NCBI RefSeq assembly: GCF_012927745.1
Contig: NZ_JABBKX010000008.1
Location: 62,001-126,000 of the forward strand
DNA: 64,000 nt
Source of the DNA: Neoroseomonas marina
GTDB taxonomy: Bacteria > Pseudomonadota > Alphaproteobacteria > Acetobacterales > Acetobacteraceae
Direction of reading: 5' to 3'
This document shows, one piece after another, positions 4,798-12,961 of this stretch. The notes beneath the pieces were generated by a model. That model was not told the DNA's origin and searched no databases. It was given only the letters and a program-made list of their open reading frames with translations. Position 1 is the stretch's first letter. Each line of letters starts with the position of its first letter. The position numbers and the translations under genes are program-made.

Positions 4798-4814
4798 TGG
4801 CTGGGGGACCTGGA
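4798..4814 (+). other. attL/attR-type site, distal copy of tRNA-Gln 3' end
   Basis: The 17 bases match the 3' end of the tRNA-Gln gene at 12888-12904 exactly and diverge on both sides. This is the expected scar of site-specific integration by a tyrosine recombinase. It lies in the roughly 350-base gap between the membrane protein (start about 4676) and the first cargo gene (5027), which otherwise holds no gene I can support. Confidence 0.82.
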
Positions 4815-4877
4815 ACTGGCCCTCCCGATCTCGCATCTCCCTGACAATGCGGGCCTCTCGGGGCCGGCTGGGGGAAA

Positions 4878-4896
4878 TGTGGGTGGATTGTGGGTG
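4878..4896 (+). promoter_or_regulatory. Paired octamers, candidate integrase arm sites (left)
   Basis: TGTGGGTG occurs at 4878-4885 and again at 4889-4896, 11 bp (one helical turn) apart. The same pair, with one change in the second copy (TGTGGGCG), lies at 12795-12802 and 12806-12813 inside the other end. The distance to the core repeat is similar on both sides (64 and 74 bp). This is the geometry of arm-type sites of a lambda-class integrase. Binding is inferred. Confidence 0.6.
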
Positions 4897-5026
4897 AGCG
4901 TCAGGCTGCGAGCAAGGTTCGATTGTAGGCTATTGGGATCTATTCGAACGGTCGGGCTATGGTCCAATATCGCCATGGTGTGAGGGTGAGCACCAACATT
5001 GCCAGACGGGAGGACAGTCTACCACT

Positions 5027-5377
5027 ATGCCTGAACCTGACGGTTTCTATGCAGGGTACTTTACATCGAAGGTAGGGCAGGGCTTCTCTTTGCTCTTGCT
5101 AACGAACGGTATCCTTGCAGGCGTGGATGTCGCTGGCGTGACCTACGACGGATCGTTCCAGTACGATCCCGTGGATGGCGGATACCCATTTGATGTGATC
5201 ATTCGGGCACCGGCAAATATTCATCTTGTGCAGGGCCGAGAAACAGGACCAGAAGGATTGACTTATGGGGCCAAATTCAGCCTGCCTGTCGACTTCCTGT
5301 CTCGATCTTATGTTACAATTCCAACTGCCCAAGGGCCAGTGAACGCGCGGTTGGTGAAGTTGCGAGACGCACCATGA
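5027..5377 (+). CDS. Small cargo protein, possibly GrlR-like beta-barrel fold
   Basis: 116 residues, no signal peptide or membrane segment. It opens with DGFYAGYFTS, GFSLLLLTNGILAGVDVAG and YDGSFQYD, followed by alternating hydrophobic strands. This resembles the pattern of the GrlR-like family (small beta-barrel proteins first named for a type III secretion regulator), but the match is by eye only. It overlaps the next gene by 4 bp (ATGA), so the two are almost certainly co-translated. Base composition is AT-richer than the chromosome. As the first gene inside the element it is cargo. Function unknown. Confidence 0.6.
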   Translation: MPEPDGFYAGYFTSKVGQGFSLLLLTNGILAGVDVAGVTYDGSFQYDPVDGGYPFDVIIRAPANIHLVQGRETGPEGLTYGAKFSLPVDFLSRSYVTIPTAQGPVNARLVKLRDAP

Positions 5378-5952
5378 TCGATTTTGTGGTATCTCGGCCG
5401 GAGGTGGTTGCGGCTTTTCTCTCGGCACTTGCTGCGGGCTTTGCTGCCTATACTGCGTGGAAAGGACCGCTCTCGGCTGCTCGTTTGGCCGAGGATCTTC
5501 GGCGCGACGGACAGGAGGCTGAGGAGAGACGCAAAGCGAAACTAGAAATCTTTGTTGCACTCATGCAGGAACGAAAGTCACTTTGGTCTCCGAGCGGTGT
5601 CCGGGCTCTGAACTTAATAGATGTCATTTTCTTTGACGTTCGCGAAGTCAGGGATGCATGGGCGGATCTGTACAATTCATATGACCCTTCTCGTCATGTT
5701 CCGATGCATGAGCAAGAGAACCGGATAAGAAAAATGCTGGAGGCGATGGCTAAAGATTTGAAATTCTCAAAAGAACTTAGGGTCGATGACTTTGACCGTC
5801 TGTATTATCCAGATTTTATGGCAAAGCGTCGAGAGTTGGATATGTTGCAGACTGATCAGACGCTTCGTACGCTGCGCGGACAAAGCTCGCCAACGGCCAA
5901 CACCGCCCCGACCGCAAGTGCGTCAAGCCTGTTCCCGCCACCACCTCCCTAA
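5374..5952 (+). CDS. DUF6680-like protein with one N-terminal membrane segment
   Basis: 192 residues. A hydrophobic segment (about residues 10-27, VAAFLSALAAGFAAYTAW) is followed by a charged helix (EDLRRDGQEAEERRKAK). Next comes a conserved-looking core with IFVALMQERK, RALNLIDVIFFDV and VRDAWADLYN, then a Ser/Thr/Pro tail ending in six prolines (SLFPPPPPP-like). The core fits what I associate with DUF6680, a family of unknown function whose members begin with a membrane anchor and a repeated MxxR...ALN pattern. ATG overlaps the stop of the preceding gene (ATGA). AT-rich relative to neighbours. Probably the membrane-anchored half of a two-gene cargo module. Confidence 0.7.
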   Translation: MIDFVVSRPEVVAAFLSALAAGFAAYTAWKGPLSAARLAEDLRRDGQEAEERRKAKLEIFVALMQERKSLWSPSGVRALNLIDVIFFDVREVRDAWADLYNSYDPSRHVPMHEQENRIRKMLEAMAKDLKFSKELRVDDFDRLYYPDFMAKRRELDMLQTDQTLRTLRGQSSPTANTAPTASASSLFPPPPP

Positions 5953-6087
5953 GTCTCTTCAGTGGCTCTGGGCCGCCCCTCTCGGCTAGGCCCCTTTCAT
6001 TGCGTGGGTCGTCTCTCTTTGGCCATCAGGTTGACCTCTCCCGGTTGTCTAGGGGGTGTGAGGGTTGCCGTTCAACGCATCCCATGC

Positions 6088-6172
6088 CTGAGATGCTGAG
6101 GACGTATTTCTGATTTCCCTTCCGCCTTCCGGGAAAGCCGACTGGACCGCGAGCCTCGCTGGGATTGCTACG
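6088..6172 (+). repeat. Solitary A-B unit of the element-specific repeat
   Basis: The 458-base gap 5953-6410 holds no gene I can support. It does hold gagat (6090) followed 51 bp later by gccgactggaccgcgag (about 6137-6153). The core matches and the spacing agrees, within 1-3 bp, with the A and B units of the array at 10.05-10.9 kb, where A to B is 52-54 bp. A weaker A-like segment follows at about 6162. This places the repeat family on both sides of the resolvase. Confidence 0.55.
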
Positions 6173-6410
6173 CCGTATCCGCCGTCAGGCGATGACGCCG
6201 CGGTAATGCAGGGCCCAGGCCCCGAAGCCTGCCCACTCGGTCGCCCCCACAGCGAAATCCCGCCCCCAGCAAGCGCAGACGGCGCCCCGGAAAGATCGCG
6301 CCAGGTCCACCAACCCGGGTGGCTGCGGTTGCCCCGAAGGGCCATGCCTGTGCCCGTTGCATACTGCTCCCGGCCCTTGCTGCGCGGCGGCCTCACGCTA
6401 CCCTCCTTGG

Positions 6411-6968
6411 TTAGCCGAGGATGCGATAGACGCTGGCCCGGCCGATACCGAGCTTGCGGGCGATGTCCACCGGGCGGACCCCCTCGGCCTTGAGGCGCAA
6501 CACCTCGGCCGCCTGCCGCTGCGCCGTGGGCACCCGCCCTTGGTACTTCCCCTCGGCCTTGGCCTTGGCGATGCCCTCCCGCTGGCGTTCGAGCATCAGG
6601 GCCCGCTCAAACTCCGCGACGGCGCCCAGCATGGTCAGCATGAGGCGCCCGGTCGGGGTCCGCGTATCCACCTCGCTACCGCCCATGGAGAGGACCCGCA
6701 GGGCAACGCCTTTTGCCTCAAGGCGGGCGATGATGCCGAGGAGGTCTGCCACTGAACGGGCCAGCCGGTCAGGCTTGGTCACGGCCAGCGTGTCGCCCTC
6801 GCGGACATACTCAAGGGCCGCCTCTAGCTGCGCCCGCTTGGCAATGGAGGAGACCCGCTCCGCAAAGACCTTGCCGCACCCGGCGGCCCGAAGGTCCCGG
6901 TCCTGTGCCTCTAGGCTGGCTTCCTGTTCCACGGTGCTGGTCCGGGCATAACCCACGGTCATTGCCAT
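6411..6968 (-). CDS. Serine recombinase, resolvase/invertase family
   Basis: Small (about 185 residues) serine recombinase. The start is set at ATG 6968 (or 6962), where MTVGYARTSTVEQ gives the canonical N-terminus. The nucleophile is the Ser in YARTS. The catalytic-domain signatures KPDRLARSVADL and GRLMLTMLGAVAEFER are intact, then comes the E-helix with EGIAKAKAEGKYQGR. A C-terminal helix-turn-helix (AEVLRLKAEGVRPVDIARKLGIGRASVYRIL) binds the site. Tn3/gamma-delta-like in size. It probably resolves multimers of the excised or replicating element, or inverts a segment. The likely res site lies directly upstream. Confidence 0.95.
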   Translation of the reverse strand: MAMTVGYARTSTVEQEASLEAQDRDLRAAGCGKVFAERVSSIAKRAQLEAALEYVREGDTLAVTKPDRLARSVADLLGIIARLEAKGVALRVLSMGGSEVDTRTPTGRLMLTMLGAVAEFERALMLERQREGIAKAKAEGKYQGRVPTAQRQAAEVLRLKAEGVRPVDIARKLGIGRASVYRILG

Positions 6969-6984
6969 TGGTCGTGTGTCCCTG

Positions 6985-7117
6985 GCCCGGCGAGACTGTC
7001 TCGCACGGGTCTTTGACGACGATGGTGGATATCGTCTCAATCGTCAATGATATTCGTGTGAGACATTCCCGGCCCATCGCGAGACGACTCACACGGGCCT
7101 GCTCTATTGAGACGTGG
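6985..7117. promoter_or_regulatory. Candidate res site / resolvase operator
   Basis: The gap upstream of the resolvase start is rich in GAGAC/GTCTC boxes. There is a perfect palindrome GCGAGAC-T-GTCTCGC at 6990-7004, then ATCGTCTCAA (7031-7040) facing GTGTGAGACA (about 7056-7065), then GCGAGACGACTCAC (about 7079-7092) and TTGAGACGT (about 7108-7116). Several imperfect inverted pairs over about 120 bp beside the recombinase gene is the layout of a three-subsite res. It is also the likely promoter region of both flanking genes. Confidence 0.5.
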
Positions 7118-7136
7118 GGCCAGCGAGGAGACGGGG

Positions 7137-7598
7137 ATGGACATTGGATTGTGGCTGACCGGACTCGGCGCCATCGGGTCGGTCGTCGGCGCTTACTTCG
7201 GATGGAAAGCCCTGAGGCCGCGCCTAAGGGCGCCTAAAGAGGTGCCGAGTGGTGCGGGCGGCAGGGGTGGCGGTGGCCTGATCGAAGGCGGCAGCGGGGT
7301 TATCATCGGCGGGCGCGGCGGTGCTGGTGGTGGCCCGGGTGGTGGTCATGGCGGCGAGGGCGGGTCAGGTGTCATCAGAGGCGGGACGGGGATTATCATT
7401 GGTGGCGAGGGCGGAGGAGCGGGGCAAGCAGATGGCAAGGGCGGAAAAGGGGGCCGTGCCGGGTGGGCTCAGTTTGGCGACGAGTATCTAGGTAGCGTCC
7501 CGGACATCACGCTGCCTGATGGAAGGAAACTGAGGGACGTGATGAGGACAGCAGGTTCGGGAGGAGACGGCGCCTCCGCGCCGCAGCCCAATCAGTGA
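7137..7598 (+). CDS. Single-pass membrane protein with glycine-rich repeats
   Basis: 153 residues. Start ATG 7137 behind GGAGACGGGG. The N-terminus is one membrane segment (IGLWLTGLGAIGSVVGAYFGW) followed by a basic stretch (RPRLRAPK). Residues about 40-115 are a glycine-rich region with three recognisable repeats (GGSGVIIGG, GGSGVIRGG, GGTGIIIGG). The C-terminal part (DEYLGSVPDITLPDGRKL) looks folded and is not glycine-rich. I do not recognise a family. Glycine-rich repeats after an anchor can form self-associating or solenoid structures. Divergent from the resolvase. Confidence 0.65.
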   Translation: MDIGLWLTGLGAIGSVVGAYFGWKALRPRLRAPKEVPSGAGGRGGGGLIEGGSGVIIGGRGGAGGGPGGGHGGEGGSGVIRGGTGIIIGGEGGGAGQADGKGGKGGRAGWAQFGDEYLGSVPDITLPDGRKLRDVMRTAGSGGDGASAPQPNQ

Positions 7599-7853
7599 GT
7601 GATGGCGGGCGCGAGGCCCCCCCCCCGGGGGGAAACCCACGATGCCGCTGGCGGTATTGGTCGCTCAGATGCGTGACCCAAAAAAGCCGGCCCCCGCCCG
7701 CCAGGGGCACCGCCCAGGGGCTGCGCTGGGGCTCGCCTGGGGCCGTTCGGGACCCCGAGAGCATATCCCGTGCTGCCGGCAGAACGGGCCCTTTGGCGGT
7801 GCCTCGGAGGGGCGGGGGACGGCCATCAAAGGACTTCTGGCCCTCTGCGCCCG
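7599..7853. other. Gap without a gene; homopolymer tract
   Basis: No supportable ORF. It contains ten C followed by six G (7617-7632), directly after the glycine-rich gene, and several GGGGC/GCCCC segments. A strong transcription or replication obstacle is plausible, but no classical terminator is seen. Confidence 0.4.
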
Positions 7854-9254
7854 TCACATGTCCTCCGATGCCTTCCGGCCATCCTCCCACCACGATACGG
7901 ACACCCGAGGTTCTTCCCCGGCATGGACGAGGTAGCCCGTTCGGATGGCCTCGACGGCCCGGCCGGTAGCCGACCGGGGAACCAGCAAGCAATCAAACAG
8001 GGGCAGCGCCAGAGTTTCGTGCTCCCGCCAGAGGATGCCCATGGCGGTCGCCAGCGCGTCCGCCTCAAGGCGCATGAGGTAGTGCGAGAGCGCCCGCTCC
8101 CGTCCGACACCCGGGAGGAAGTCGGCGGGGACCAAGAGCGCCGGGCAGCGCATGAAGGGGAACCGGGCGATGACCGCAGCACGGATGCTCGCCAGTGGCG
8201 GCCATCCGTCTTCGCGTCCTGCATCCCTGGCCCACCGCTTGGCCGGCCCGCCTGTGCCGATGGTCATGGTGACGAACGCTTTGACGGCCTCCCGGGGGAT
8301 GCCGGGAAGGGCATACGGGTCTCCCTCGGGCAGCGGGATATTCGCCAGCGCGTGCAGGACGGTCAGGTGTGAGGCCCGCGCATCCACCTCCACTATCGGC
8401 TCCCCGCCTATCGTGATGTCCCGGAGGCGGTCCTCCGCTGCCATCCGCTGGTAGGCCACACCGCCACCGCCGAGGGCATAGAGGCGACCATGCCCGGTGC
8501 CGTGGTAGGTGCGGCGGAAGACCGGACGCGGGCACCCCGTCACGGGCACCGTCGCGGCCCGTTCATTGAGGGCGGCCACGGTCTCGGTGGCAGCGGCGAG
8601 GTCGGCGCCGGCTAACCTTGCCCGGCCGAGGGGCTTCACCTCCACCAACTCAGGTGGTGCGGCAGGCTGGATGGTCTCGGCGTCGATGCGGCGGAAGGCA
8701 TCCGCGACGGTCCCCGCCGTGACCCGGTAAGCCCCCGCGAGCGCGAGCAAGCGGGCGGTCGGGTGCCATCGCGAAGACCAGCCCCCGCCGTAGCAGCCCG
8801 GCATCACTTCGCGGCGGAAGCCGGGGTGGTGGATCAGAAGGCCGGCGGACGTGAGAGCATCGGCGGCGGCCAGTGCCGTCCGGGCCCCGATAGGCTTCCC
8901 CGTGAAGGCAGCGGCCCTCCGCGAGTGAGAGATCGGAACACGGCGCCGCCACCACGCCCCGAGAACGGAACCGACGATGGCCCCAAGAGCGCGGCGGAAG
9001 TCAGCGGCTTCGCGTGAGCCTCTGGTCCTGCCGCGTGTTTCGACGGCCGATGCGTTGGCCTCCACGGCACCCATGAGGGCCCGCGCGGGTTCCGTGACGG
9101 GAGCGATGGTCCAGTCCAGCAACACAGCATCGCGCAGGGCATCCGCCGACAGCGTCGCAGGGCCAGAAACCGTTTCCCGTAATGGCGTGTGGTGCGCTGA
9201 GGGTTCCCGGCGCAGTGGACCACCTCCTCCATCCACCATCGAAGGCTTCTCCAT
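7854..9254 (-). CDS. Unrecognised protein with family-A-polymerase-like motifs
   Basis: 466 residues, soluble, start at ATG 9254 (or 9239). No family is certain. The C-terminal half shows motifs in the order and spacing of a PolA palm. IVEVDARASHLTVLHAL has Asp291 in a motif-A-like position, after which come GDPYALPG and REAVKAFVTMTIGTG, an R-x3-K-x7-G pattern (Arg321, Lys325, Gly333) as in motif B. LMRLEADALATAM follows, then LPLFDCLLVP, where Asp421 would be motif C (HDE reads FDC). The motif-C change means catalysis is doubtful. The N-terminal half has a WWRRR-rich segment and no clear exonuclease motif. It lies downstream of RNase HI on the same strand (90-bp gap), which suggests a replication role. 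Confidence 0.75.
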   Translation of the reverse strand: MEKPSMVDGGGGPLRREPSAHHTPLRETVSGPATLSADALRDAVLLDWTIAPVTEPARALMGAVEANASAVETRGRTRGSREAADFRRALGAIVGSVLGAWWRRRVPISHSRRAAAFTGKPIGARTALAAADALTSAGLLIHHPGFRREVMPGCYGGGWSSRWHPTARLLALAGAYRVTAGTVADAFRRIDAETIQPAAPPELVEVKPLGRARLAGADLAAATETVAALNERAATVPVTGCPRPVFRRTYHGTGHGRLYALGGGGVAYQRMAAEDRLRDITIGGEPIVEVDARASHLTVLHALANIPLPEGDPYALPGIPREAVKAFVTMTIGTGGPAKRWARDAGREDGWPPLASIRAAVIARFPFMRCPALLVPADFLPGVGRERALSHYLMRLEADALATAMGILWREHETLALPLFDCLLVPRSATGRAVEAIRTGYLVHAGEEPRVSVSWWEDGRKASEDM

Positions 9255-9317
9255 CGAGGGATATGCCTAGAGGCGGTGGGAGGTGGGATGTCGCTTCCGG
9301 TAAAGCCGACTGGACCG
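9255..9317 (+). repeat. Solitary A-B unit between the PolA-like and RNase HI genes
   Basis: gagggatatgcc at about 9255 is followed 54 bp later by a B unit centred on 9294-9320. Here B is a perfect inverted repeat, TTCCGGT-(12 nt)-ACCGGAA. It sits in the gap directly upstream of the PolA-like gene, so it may also be regulatory. Same unit and spacing as the array at 10.05-10.9 kb. Confidence 0.55.
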
Positions 9318-9343
9318 GAAGGACGCAAGGCGATGCCGCACGA

Positions 9344-9847
9344 TCAAGCACCGCGCCGCGTGACTTCCGGTTTGTCCCTCGCGGCACTTGCAAGGGCATC
9401 TGCGCGGGTGTTCATCGGGTCCCCGGCGTGCCCCTGCACCCACTGCCAGGTGACGTCGTGGGGTTCCGCCGCTACGGCGAGAAGCTGCCAGAGGTCGGCG
9501 TTCAAGACCGGCTTTCCTGCGGAGGTGCGCCACCGGCTGGCCTGCCACTTCGGCAGCCACAGGGACATGCCCCGCACGACATACTCACTGTCGGCATGGA
9601 CGGCGACGCGGGACGGGTTCAGCAGGGCTTTCAGGCCAGCGATGGCAGCACGAAGCTCCATGCGGTTGTTGGTCGTGTTGGGCTCGGCGCCGGATAGCTC
9701 GCGGGTGCGGCCCTCGGGATTGCGGAGGATTGCAGCCCAGCCGCCGCGTCCTGGGTTCGGACGGCAACTTCCGTCGGTCCAGATTTCGATGTGACGCCGA
9801 ACGTCGCCGCTTGGACCGGCGGCGAGGGCAGAGGAGATGGTGGTCAT
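9344..9847 (-). CDS. rnhA: Ribonuclease HI
   Basis: About 167 residues with the start set at ATG 9847 (an upstream Met at 9874 is possible). Cleaves the RNA strand of RNA-DNA hybrids. All catalytic residues are present, numbered from 9847: Asp24 in WTDGSC, Glu64 in NNRMELRA, Asp86 in VHADSEYV, His140 in WVQGHAG and Asp150 in NTRADALA. The handle-region segment with LWLPKWQASRWRTSAGK is present. As a copy carried by a mobile element next to a PolA-like protein and a repeat array, it plausibly processes primers or R-loops in element replication. It is probably additional to a chromosomal rnhA. Confidence 0.95.
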   Translation of the reverse strand: MTTISSALAAGPSGDVRRHIEIWTDGSCRPNPGRGGWAAILRNPEGRTRELSGAEPNTTNNRMELRAAIAGLKALLNPSRVAVHADSEYVVRGMSLWLPKWQASRWRTSAGKPVLNADLWQLLAVAAEPHDVTWQWVQGHAGDPMNTRADALASAARDKPEVTRRGA

Positions 9848-10046
9848 GGTGGGTGTGGGTCCTTGTGGGCGCATGTCCGCACGTCCCTCCGGGGTGATCC
9901 GAAGGGGCGCGCGTTGGTGGCCTTGAGGGGTTGAGGGAGAAAGGGAGGCAACGCACGGCGGCGCCTGCCATCACGATCCGCGAGTAGCACCACCAACGAT
10001 ATTGCCGGGGCGAATCTCGGTCAGATGCGGCGAGGACGGTTTCGGG

Positions 10047-10920
10047 GCTGTGGAGGTGGCCGGTATTAGCGCCGTGCGGCCGCTCCACGGCCAGCGGTCA
10101 AGCTGACTGGACCGGAAATCTTCGGCACGGGGAGGTTCACCGTATTAGCCTTGAGCGTCGAGCACCGAGCATTTCACATGCGGGCGACGTGGCGCACGTC
10201 TCGGCGCCGAGCGCAGTGGCAGAGGCCAGTAGTCGCAGCCGGGCGGCGTTTGGCGCTGTGGAGGTCGGCCGTATCGTATGGCATCCAGCCGCACCGCCGC
10301 TTGCGGGAAAGCTCCCTGGACCGCGGACGTGTGGCGCGGGGAGATGCACCGTATTGGGCACGAAGCTCATGGACCTCGGCGTCCGCCGTTTGGGCGCGTG
10401 GGGAGGGCCCCGGTAGATCAAAGCCCCCACTCACGGCGGGTGACGCTCGGTGCGTGGGGAGGTTCACCATAACTCCCCGCGTCCCGGCGTTCGGCGCGTG
10501 CTGAGATAGGCCCTAACTTATGCGCTCCGCCGGTTCCGCGTTTCCGGTCCACTGACTGGACCGCAAATCCTTAGGGCGCGGGGAGGTAGGCCTCAACTTG
10601 CGCTCCTCACTGTTCGGGTGGGTGGGGAGATGCATCCTAACTCGCGCTCCTCGCCGCTCGGGTGCGTGCTGAGGTGAGCCCTAACTCACGCCGCCGGCCG
10701 CTCGATGCCTGGGAAGATGGGCCCTAACCGCGCATTCAGCCGCATCGTCGTTTTCGGTAAAGCCCACTGGAGCGCGAATGTTTGGGCCTTCTGTGGTGAG
10801 CCCTATTGGTCGCGAGGAATGGCCCTCTCGGCTCCCGGCTTCGAAGGGCCTGGAAGGGGCGCCGCATTGCGGCGGCGACGTTTTGGTCTGGCCTCAGGTC
10901 CAGCGGACTGGACCGCAACG
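10047..10920 (+). repeat. Composite repeat array, A units (44-bp step) with palindromic B units
   Basis: The 1.1-kb gap between RNase HI and the integrase holds no gene. A units read roughly GCGTGGGGAGGTNNNCC followed by TAACTCGCG. Their GAGGT cores start at 10053, 10132, 10261, 10341, 10403, 10459, 10503, 10583, 10627, 10671, about 10713 and about 10795, with a weak copy near 10853. B units centre on actggacc at 10106, 10315, 10555, 10766 and 10907, and several are hairpins (GGTCCA-CTGAC-TGGACC at about 10547-10563). Direct A-A steps in the best part are 42-44 bp. Wherever a B intervenes the step is 79-81 bp, with A to B 52-54 and B to A 26-29. Iteron-like, possibly a replication origin or partition site. 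Function unknown. Confidence 0.8.
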
Positions 10921-10989
10921 CCCGAGGCGCCGAACGGCCCATCAATGCAAAGGAGCCGCCCGCGAGCCCGACCGGTGGCGAACGCGCAG

Positions 10990-12825
10990 TCAATCCGCCG
11001 GATCGGCATCTGGCCAATACAAGTGCGACAAGTCCAACTCAGGATACCGCAATAGCGCGAGCGTAGCGGCAGTCGCCTTCAAGCCGGGCCCTTTGTCGTA
11101 TCGCACATCGCCCTCGGTCGCGCCCCCGCCATGGCCCATGAGGTAATCGCGATGGCGCTTCTGTTGGAAATCGGTGATGGCGTCCGTCAGCCGCGTGATG
11201 GCGGTATGGCGGAACGAGTGCATGCCGACGCCCTTCCGATACACCCCGACTTGCTGACGGTAGTAGATGAAATCGCGCGTGAAGCGTGCGCCGCGCCGCC
11301 CGTCTTTCCCCTGCGGCGGAAGGTCGGGGAATAGAGGATCGTCCGGGCGCGGCGCCTTCTCGTGGACGTATTGTACGAAGCCCAAGCGGATGACCTCGGG
11401 ATGCAAAGGAAGAGAGCGGGCCGCATTGCCGGTCTTTAGGCTGCGGCCCTTCTTCCCCGCCGCTTCATCCGCCTCGGTCTCCACGATCTTGAGAAGCCAT
11501 GTTCCTGCGTCGCATTGCAGGTCGCGCCCGTAGAGGTCTGCGAACTCCTCAAGCCGGCCGCCATGGAACAATGCCAAGAGCGGCAGCCAGAACTTCGCAT
11601 CGCGGACAATGTGCGGGCCGGACAGGGTGGCGCGGGAGATATCGCGACCCGACCACACGGGCGTCTTGAACAGTGCCGCTAGCTCCGCTGGCGTCCATGC
11701 GTCGCGTTGGTCTCGCGCCTTCTTCGGCGCCTGGAAGCGGTGATCCTTCACCAGCTCGTCACGACCGACGACGCTTAACAGCCCTTGGTCCATTGCAAAG
11801 CGGAAGAACTGCGATAGCGCAGTGAGGTGGCGCTTCACGGTCTTGTCGGTTAGTCGCGCGGCGTTGCTCGCTTCGGCCTCCGCGATCATGGCCGCGACGC
11901 TTTTTGGCGGGGCCTTGCAGGACCGATTGTATAGGGCCGGCATCCTTCGCAGCGTGCCGAGGAAATGCGTCACGTCGCCGCGCTGATACTCGGCCGGCGG
12001 ACGGTCGCCGCACACTTCGAAGAACAGCCGCAGCGTGGCGCGTTCTTGCCCCATCACCTGATGCCGCGTGCGGTCGATGGTTTCCCTGCGGACGAAATAC
12101 GGATCAACCAACGAGGAAGCAGAAGGCTGCGCGTGTGTCTCGGCATTGGACGCTGCGGCTGCCTTCGCCTCTGGCGTGGGAGGCATCCCGCTTTCCGGGG
12201 ACGTGGACTGCACTTCAACGGGTGGCGCGGCGCCGCATGATGGCGCCTCTCCCGTCGCCACTACCAGCGGCTCAAGGCCCAACGTCCGCCGTTCAGCCGT
12301 GTCCCACGCCTTCACCGCGACTTCCAGCAAGCCCAGGGCGAGGGGCCGCAGGAGGTGCTCCGGGAGACCATGACGACGAAGCAGCCGCGCGGCCTCATCC
12401 TCCATATCCATCGGGTCGTTGTCGGCAATGCGCTGCGCCATGCTCTCACGGGCGTCGCGGATGGCGCGAAGGTCCGCCTCGGTTGCGGTCTCGGGGTCGC
12501 CGCGTTCCCATCCATGGGCATAGACGGGTCGCCCGGGCGCGCGCTCCATGCGCTCCCGAAGGTCCCGCTCCAAGGTGTCGCGAAGCTCCGCCGCGAGGAT
12601 CGGCCCGAGGGCCGCCGTCAGCTTGGTCCCGTCCACACTCACTCTCGCCATCGCAGCGCCGAAAACATCATCGAGCAGCGCCGCCCGATGCTCGGCTTCC
12701 CGGAAGCGGCGCGTGCGGAGGCTTAGCGAGACCTCGCCGCGCGGCAAGCCCGGGAGGCGGCGCCGCCAGTAGTAAACGTCATTCTTCCTGGTGATGTGGG
12801 TGAGTTGTGGGCGAGCAGCGTGCAA
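10990..12825 (-). CDS. Tyrosine recombinase (integrase) of the tRNA-Gln element
   Basis: 611 residues, start TTG 12825. Catalyses integration and excision at the tRNA-Gln 3' end. The N-terminus (ITRKNDVYYWRRRLPGLPRGEVSLSLRTRRFREAEHRA) is the arm-binding type domain found in proteobacterial integrases. A low-complexity linker (residues about 195-240) precedes the core-binding domain. All catalytic residues are visible: Arg424 in HGGRLEE, Lys near 465, His536 and Arg539 in HSFRHTAI, His565 in MGHGG and Tyr576 in VRYDKG. It reads away from the tRNA, 62 bp from its 3' end. The arm octamers at 12795-12813 lie within its first codons, so integrase binding could repress its own synthesis. Confidence 0.95.
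   Translation of the reverse strand: MHAARPQLTHITRKNDVYYWRRRLPGLPRGEVSLSLRTRRFREAEHRAALLDDVFGAAMARVSVDGTKLTAALGPILAAELRDTLERDLRERMERAPGRPVYAHGWERGDPETATEADLRAIRDARESMAQRIADNDPMDMEDEAARLLRRHGLPEHLLRPLALGLLEVAVKAWDTAERRTLGLEPLVVATGEAPSCGAAPPVEVQSTSPESGMPPTPEAKAAAASNAETHAQPSASSLVDPYFVRRETIDRTRHQVMGQERATLRLFFEVCGDRPPAEYQRGDVTHFLGTLRRMPALYNRSCKAPPKSVAAMIAEAEASNAARLTDKTVKRHLTALSQFFRFAMDQGLLSVVGRDELVKDHRFQAPKKARDQRDAWTPAELAALFKTPVWSGRDISRATLSGPHIVRDAKFWLPLLALFHGGRLEEFADLYGRDLQCDAGTWLLKIVETEADEAAGKKGRSLKTGNAARSLPLHPEVIRLGFVQYVHEKAPRPDDPLFPDLPPQGKDGRRGARFTRDFIYYRQQVGVYRKGVGMHSFRHTAITRLTDAITDFQQKRHRDYLMGHGGGATEGDVRYDKGPGLKATAATLALLRYPELDLSHLYWPDADPAD
12795..12813 (+). promoter_or_regulatory. Paired octamers, candidate integrase arm sites (right)
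   Basis: TGTGGGTG (12795-12802) and TGTGGGCG (12806-12813), 11 bp apart, duplicate the pair at 4878-4896 in sequence, spacing and orientation. They overlap the first codons of the integrase gene. Confidence 0.6.
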
Positions 12826-12887
12826 GGGCGGCCTCGGCGTGCTGGCCGACCCGAAAGATGCTGCTTCGTCAGGTGTTTAGGATGCGG

Positions 12888-12961
12888 TGGCTGGGGGACC
12901 TGGATTCGAACCAAGGCTGCCCGGGTCAGAGCCGGGAGTTCTACCGCTAAACTATCCCCCA
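12888..12961 (-). tRNA. tRNA-Gln (anticodon CUG)
   Basis: 74-nt cloverleaf with encoded CCA. The acceptor stem pairs TGGGGGA with TCCCCCA, and the discriminator is G. The anticodon stem is CCCGG/CCGGG around the loop CTCTGAC, giving anticodon CTG. The T-arm is CTTGG-TTCGAAT-CCAGG with one G-T pair. The 3' 17 bases are the attachment site of the element and are duplicated at 4798-4814. The gene is intact, so integration restored it. Confidence 0.97.

Follow-up and report, generated by a model that had tools for sequence, protein, structure and literature searches.

At positions 10046-10918 of the window, the whole 64,000-nucleotide stretch of Neoroseomonas marina DNA analysed here, a small element integrated in a tRNA gene carries an array composed of two sequence motifs, a directional unit (A) and a dyad (B). 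The array is real, and with a probability of about 0.7 it represents a putative cis-acting, protein-binding array which functions at the level of the DNA. Four such arrays, from three genomes of two genera, have A, B, their position and a leader in common; each of the three further arrays is located just 3' of a DUF6538 integrase gene, in the same genome (locus L005), in another Neoroseomonas species (genome G402) and in another genus (genome G308). As a few related elements have the signals next to their integrase genes as well, the array is probably a docking array for proteins controlling or maintaining the element. We infer both the protein binding and its purpose. That the array serves mainly the maintenance of the excised element, in an origin- or centromere-like capacity, or the control of that process, is proposed tentatively, at somewhat below even odds.

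The array and the element that carries it

The element, 8.1 kb in size (4798-12904), is integrated in a tRNA-Gln gene (12888-12961, minus strand; ARAGORN, Rfam) and is bounded by a 17-bp exact repeat, with one att copy in the 3' end of the tRNA gene (12888-12904) and the other at the opposite element end (4798-4814). The order along the minus strand is tRNA, integrase, array, leader, RNase HI, the ORF at 7854-9254 and, further along, a serine resolvase, the array being localised between the DUF6538 tyrosine integrase gene (10990-12825, minus strand; Pfam PF20172, phrog_1 integrase) and rnhA (9344-9874, minus strand; PF00075 1.8e-41, NF001236). The small serine resolvase (6411-7040, minus strand) matches PF00239 (1.6e-41), and a DUF6680 protein (PF20385) is encoded on the plus strand at 5374-5952. 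The conserved leader between the array and the next gene (9963-10016, minus strand) was aligned with those of L005 and L054 and its first part was recognised by eye in L103 and L106; in all four elements the array is followed by a short leader of approximately the sequence TTCGCCCYGGCAR. The 466-aa product of the ORF at 7854-9254 (minus strand), earlier called PolA-like, matches only phrog_4756, of unknown function, and has no Pfam, NCBIfam or PDB match, no relative in the viral contigs or phages searched and a single match among plasmids (Sphingomonas, 28.5%). One stretch of it presumably resembles a family A polymerase motif.

Thirteen A units, one of them weak, and five B dyads make up the array, which is read on the plus strand, where all of the A units lie. 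The A units are located at 10046-10068 (18.3 bits under the A PWM), 10125-10147 (20.4), 10254-10276 (17.9), 10334-10356 (23.1), 10396-10418 (19.0, with a degenerate right half), 10452-10474 (24.6), 10496-10518 (20.9), 10576-10598 (16.7), 10620-10642 (21.9), 10664-10686 (20.7), 10707-10729 (18.9), 10786-10808 (13.7) and, as the weak unit, 10847-10869 (8.0). The B dyads occupy 10092-10117 (28.4 under the B PWM), 10301-10326 (22.1, imperfect), 10542-10566 (33.1, with a centre shorter by one base), 10752-10777 (23.9) and 10893-10918 (29.1). Measured between fixed anchors, all four A-A intervals that contain a B fall at 79, 80, 80 and 79, all five A to B distances at 57, 58, 56, 56 and 57, and all four B to A distances at 22, 22, 24 and 23, no A following the fifth B. 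The eight A-A intervals without a B are 129, 62, 56, 44, 44, 44, 43 and 61, so that the 43-44 step is found in four of the eight. The original prediction had placed the array at 10047..10920, with a 42-44-bp A step in its best stretch and a step of 79-81 across B, and these figures agree closely with those measured; its A to B and B to A distances of 52-54 and 26-29 describe the same regularity from different anchors.

Autocorrelation of the array was tested against 200 dinucleotide shuffles. The best segment score at lag 44 is 35 (z 4.1), as against 18 for the best shuffle at any lag, and lags 209, 168 and 255 also lie above all shuffles (30, 26 and 22), while two control pieces of the window, of 921 bp each, score at most 15 and 13. 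Lag 80 does not form a peak of its own (z 2.3 versus 3.7, the 95% point of the shuffle maxima). The 44/80 signal that had been predicted is therefore present at lag 44, which exceeds every shuffle, but not at lag 80 taken alone.

Read against the integrase strand, the A motif is TGGGGAGRT-N6-TAWY, a bipartite, directional unit of about 20 bp. When sites in the four arrays were chosen by GGGGA[GA] alone, TA was found at exactly +14 in 18 of 23, with a total of 3 for all other offsets from +6 to +29, whereas 66 control GGGGA[GA] sites elsewhere in the window have TA at +14 in 0 and within +13 to +15 in about 2 (~3%). This selection used only the left half of the motif, so the TA under test was not selected for. 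GGGGA[GA] occurs 23 times on this strand of the arrays versus four times on the integrase-sense strand, and when both strands of the four arrays were scanned, every A hit scoring at least 8 bits (40 in all) proved to be on the strand opposite the integrase gene. The chance rate at 13 bits is 0-2 A hits per resampled 64 kb (12 trials). The A PWM was trained on these same arrays and, as this holds for both PWMs, hits within the arrays are there by construction; held-out support is provided by the discovery of G402 with the model R2 described below, by a two-array training test whose site choice had, however, seen all arrays, by the lone B sites that were not used in training and by the half-motif test. 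By analogy with iteron-binding proteins, the shape of A is as would be expected where the protein contacts two patches spaced by about one turn.

The B dyad, TTCCGGTnnA...TnnACCGSAA with a short variable centre, is about 26 bp long. Outside the array the window element contains two lone copies, one of them 3' of the serine resolvase gene (6127-6152; B PWM 24.6) and the other, nearly perfect, between rnhA and the next ORF (9295-9320; 33.0). The latter fits the 26-bp dyad pattern at every position and is alone in doing so in its own genome. All seven dyads of at least 13 bits in the window lie within the element, with 0 in the other 56 kb, and the strong A and B sites of the window are alike confined to it; each of 20 resampled 64-kb sequences gave at most one B hit of at least 13 bits, and the B dyads of three elements score 21-33. 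A lone B is situated 3' of the resolvase in all three elements in which both are readable (window, L005 and G308), L005 and G308 having one lone B each, at that position.

Genome-wide, four sites in the own genome match the dyad with 0-2 mismatches, all in the window element; this pattern fixes the centre length, so that the two array B dyads of L005 escape it. When up to 3 mismatches are allowed the own genome yields 20+20 matches versus 34+41 for a reversed control pattern. An exact-pattern search found B in 4 of 319 family genomes, two of which (G044 and G124) are not known array carriers, and a shorter pattern matched in 7 of 10 chosen genomes, at most three times in each. In G044, G216 and G237 the single B-form dyads that were read are located within ORFs, and single dyads of this form outside such elements count against an element-only role. 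One search of viral contigs with the B pattern gave no match; another gave six contigs with one site each, and no array was seen within the 150 bases read. As a dyad, B is as expected for a dimer and is a candidate dimer site, although its centre varies between 3 and 5 bases (by one way of splitting it), a degree of variation not usual for a strict dimer site. G393 also has two B-like dyads (GGTGCAGT..CTGCACC; L088 7080-7105 and 7468-7493); the gene adjoining them is HNH-like as judged by eye, and the surrounding island also encodes a large serine recombinase.

The one-way orientation of A and the hairpin that B makes on paper would also suit an array that is transcribed to a repeated structured or decoy RNA. 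Action at the RNA level is, however, very improbable: the whole array shows no excess folding on either strand (z -0.58 and -0.73, 20 shuffles each), no covariation was found in the B-A or A units, the 4 pairs found never varying on both sides, and Rfam gave no match at gathering score. By inspection only, a CRISPR-like array was rejected as the repeats are too degenerate, an integron attC on account of the 26-bp B and the integrase at a tRNA, and an anti-Shine-Dalgarno decoy as A varies between G and A at a pairing base.

Related arrays in the Acetobacteraceae

The second array in the own genome was found by DNA search (L005 9943-10121). It comprises 3 A and 2 B and immediately follows the 3' end of another DUF6538 integrase gene, at tRNA-Thr, in a 5.9-kb element with a 26-bp att repeat. 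A model of the B-A unit built from the window and L005 (R1) gave hits in 6 of 397 family genomes, one of which, G308, has an array of 9 A (by PWM) and 3 B between the integrase and a ParB-like gene. With G308 added, the model (R2) matched four of the 35 genomes scanned from the own genus. One of these, G402, contains the fourth array, which has 15 A according to the PWM, together with two B-like dyads, and lies 3' of an integrase sharing 91% identity with that of L005. As the G402 score under R2 (25.4 bits) is little above two single hits of 24.2 bits, one of them in G405, this array was recognised by reading the locus. Across the 397 family genomes R2 gave hits in 11, of which the own genome and G308 alone reached at least 48 bits; each of the remaining nine has a single hit scoring 19.5-24.2 bits, those in G044, G216 and G237 being in ORFs and that in G393 in the above island. 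G139, with one 25-bp match, proved by eye to be without an array. The genome samples are partial, with family draws of at most 397.

The window integrase has relatives with identities of 85% in Neoroseomonas terrae, 51% in an Acetobacteraceae MAG and 45% in N. lacus. The elements constitute a family of small tRNA-integrated elements of the Acetobacteraceae; the two with both ends located measure 5.9 and 8.1 kb. A search for related integrases gave 31 places in 28 of 387 genomes. Of these places 30 were given as loci, some of them truncated by contig ends; the matches do not include G402. Two of the 30 loci have an array, 24 have no A of at least 12 bits, three have one A of 12.1-13.0 bits and one has a single A of 18.8 bits. 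Since 24 of 30 loci have no A at this threshold the integrase lineage does without the array, and N. terrae has none despite the 85% identity of its integrase. Minimal forms consisting of a single A and the leader are found in G313 (18.8 bits) and, weakly, in G138 (11.2 bits). The comparison of leaders left out L109, where the contig ends soon after the integrase and which is included in the 30-locus count; the leader pattern missed L103 and L104, in which the leader was read by eye. At about position 3383 of L108 (G225), 3' of a related integrase, a palindrome GGTGCAGTTCACTGCAC and a similar second copy are each followed by TTATCCCC, perhaps representing another array type.

The location of the arrays next to DUF6538 integrase genes raises the alternative that A and B are arm-type sites of the integrase, the DUF6538 domain being one that we presume may bind such sites. 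This is highly improbable, as most related integrases have no array, and no A of at least 5 bits is found in the 165-351-bp stretches at four att ends of two elements, a comparison which covers the A motif only. Moreover, the window and L005 integrases are 36% identical over 148 aa only, while their array units reach 90% over 49 bp.

The integrase genes of L005 and G402 are 89.7% identical at the DNA level. Alignment of their array regions, by contrast, is limited to pieces no longer than 38 bp, at 76%, and both have nevertheless kept A, B, the orientation and the leader. Sites kept while the surrounding sequence turned over are, as judged from the sequence, what selection on sites would look like. 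The A-A step is 44 in the window, 34-37 in G308 and mostly 35-41 in G402, and none is seen in the short L005 array; the A to B distance is 56-58 in the window, 57, 42 and 57 in G308 and 60 and 49 in L005, and only the B to A distance (22-28) is steady in the window, L005 and G308. With the flanks turned over and the A-A step differing between related elements, the sites are conserved and the 44/80 phasing is not. The original prediction of a functional nucleoprotein array, not random decay, is upheld as to its non-random motifs, since A and B recur at the same place in three further arrays and the geometry of A is fixed despite the turnover, but is not supported as to the phasing being itself functional, as the spacing scan of related elements with a model of A and B shows that the step is not conserved.

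The location of the array in the four elements, where the integrase stop codon precedes it and the leader of the following gene comes after it, the retention of a single A with the leader in G313 and, more weakly, in G138, and the intergenic position of the lone B sites would be in keeping with transcription control, with A and B acting as operators or attenuator-like sites which insulate or regulate the integrase and the downstream cargo genes. Up to 15 A sites are, however, far above the needs of an operator, the sites are 3' of the integrase rather than at its promoter, and the ORFs scanned revealed no regulator gene shared by the elements, so that this explanation is considered unlikely.

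The arrays may alternatively represent a mosaic repeat expansion, REP/BIME- or STAR-like, in which A and B spread as short repeats without a dedicated role. The A copy number ranges from 1 to 15, and isolated A-like sites of 13.5-17.0 bits occur in L009, L064, L065 and L088. An A site also lies within the integrase ORF, at a similar position in both genes, in G402 (L103 6553-6575; 25.7 bits) and, in degenerate form, in L005 (11064-11086; 15.4 bits), which would be a peculiar location for a maintenance site. The arm CTGGACC of B is common to the window and L005 arrays of one genome, and the ACTACAC form is found in the lone B of L005 and the B of G308, a distribution which suggests copying between co-resident elements; on sequence grounds it may reflect either such copying or adaptation to one shared protein, both of which the data accommodate. 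REPs, according to PMC2817692, are usually present in more than 100 copies per genome and, within BIMEs, occur in alternating orientation. The arrays resemble the REP/BIME sequences of that account (PMC2817692) in that palindromes are mixed with other segments, clustered and extragenic, but differ in the single orientation of A and the rarity of B in the genome. In the own genome neither high copy number nor dispersal of the repeats was observed, nor was a RAYT-type Y1 transposase (Y1_Tnp PF01797, 0 matches; 5 of 14 control genomes positive). As conservation is, in addition, limited to two half-motifs at a fixed distance, which copying alone would not give, repeat expansion is doubtful as an explanation. 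Among the loci without an array, two A-like sites (13.9 and 16.0 bits) share one inter-ORF gap in G059 (L065 3834-3857 and 3971-3994), which has a ParB-like gene, and a lone A-like site (16.6 bits, minus strand) occurs just 3' of the resolvase gene in the element of G166 (L064 3996-4018), which has ParB-like, HNH-like and integrase genes.

Comparison with described origins, partition sites and transfer regions

The iterons of theta plasmids are directional, bipartite sites of about 20 bp with steps of about 22 bp, accompanied by an AT-rich segment and a Rep gene. The present array is similar in that directional, bipartite sites of about 20 bp are arrayed in a small replicon-like element with conserved geometry (TA at +14 and a single strand, as above), and differs in its steps of 34-44, its second, dyad motif and the lack of an identified Rep gene or AT-rich segment. 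No adjacent AT-rich unwinding region is present at the array, where the lowest 50-bp GC content is 0.52, with 0.58 in 9860-10030; elsewhere in the element a value of 0.34 (50 bp) is reached, at 5725. Without an AT-rich segment and a recognised Rep or ParA gene, the array is less readily explained as a plain origin or a plain par site. P1 parS also combines two different motifs in one site, its A and B boxes, but is a single compact site of heptamer and hexamer boxes around an IHF site, unlike the long array observed here.

In the IncC plasmids and SGI1, parS consists of 22-bp dyads, mostly intergenic and scattered, which function in partition, SGI1 using the partition proteins of its helper, and a 4-bp insertion in the dyad centre abolishes ParB binding (PMC10954446). 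The B dyads are likewise scattered and intergenic in a mobile element, but no ParA was recognised here, the B centre varies in length, and the excerpted account describes no counterpart of the directional A motif (PMC10954446). The oriT regions of the pWBG749 family, which also combine repeats and dyads, are, as described in PMC8136818, compact, with two binding sites (ossA/ossB) per oriT that are bound by an accessory protein and mimicked by other staphylococcal plasmids. An oriT mimic by which a conjugative element would mobilise these elements could similarly be envisaged, as no relaxase was found among the element ORFs scanned. This is improbable, more so than transcription control or repeat expansion, since no nic-type site was identified and array size varies widely. 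Furthermore, no plasmid counterpart of the arrays was found, by contrast with the oriTs of PMC8136818: the window array DNA has no match in 50,697 phage or 72,556 plasmid records, and the L054 and L103 arrays have no similar DNA in the same plasmid records (blastn, words of 11), a search which degenerate arrays could escape. No such array is named in the titles or abstract starts among the papers listed, and the literature search gave none on DUF6538.

Candidate binding proteins and a proposed role in maintenance of the element

No ParB-like gene was recognised in the window element, and a search of the own genome for one gave a single match, in the L005 element. The gene that follows the array is rnhA in the window, an unassigned 145-aa ORF and then a ParB-like gene in L005, and a ParB-like gene in G308. 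The proposed connection of the array with rnhA and the PolA-like gene is not supported, as the next gene differs in L005 and G308 and the PolA-like ORF has no match in Pfam, NCBIfam or PDB. The ParB-like proteins of L005 and G308 are 72% identical, and a profile of seven ParB-like relatives matches ParB, Noc and sulfiredoxin structures (ParB/Srx-fold); no relative was found in viral contigs or phages. In an arrayless relative, G102, an RNase HI (45% over 132 aa to that of the window) adjoins a ParB-like gene, placing both in one element family. The relatives encode several plasmid-like proteins, namely a ParB/Srx-fold protein, a serine resolvase and RNase HI. Among the ParB-like proteins scanned only that of the 3.4-kb Roseomonas marmotae plasmid (NZ_CP061100.1), which has three annotated genes (recombinase, HTH and ParB-like), reaches the Pfam ParB_N cut-off. 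A G-rich, irregular repeat stretch is visible by eye upstream of the ParB-like gene of this plasmid (L063 1985-2330), at a position equivalent to that of the G308 array. The ORFs scanned included no recognised ParA, and the element ORFs scanned, several of which have no match at all, included no Rep initiator by Pfam or NCBIfam. Given that no ParB-like gene was found in the window element, the host or the co-resident L005 element may supply the binder.

In the proposed mechanism a protein would read A as a directional two-patch site in the manner of an iteron, and a dimer would recognise the B dyad. The array would then serve the maintenance of the excised element, origin- or centromere-like, or its control, and the extra B sites in the same element would fit scattered sites of the centromere type. 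It is conceivable, though unlikely, that the two-motif grammar allows small integrative elements with different integrases and cargo to share one protein for segregation or replication that acts in trans and may be provided by a co-resident element, with units copied between co-residents so that arrays would match the cell and not the integrase; the array would then be a previously undescribed maintenance sequence. To our knowledge, how small tRNA-integrated elements persist without recognisable phage, conjugation or replication genes is poorly known. A conserved, element-specific array provides a concrete cis target for the factor on which such elements depend, and the identification of its binder could show whether one element lives on the protein of another.
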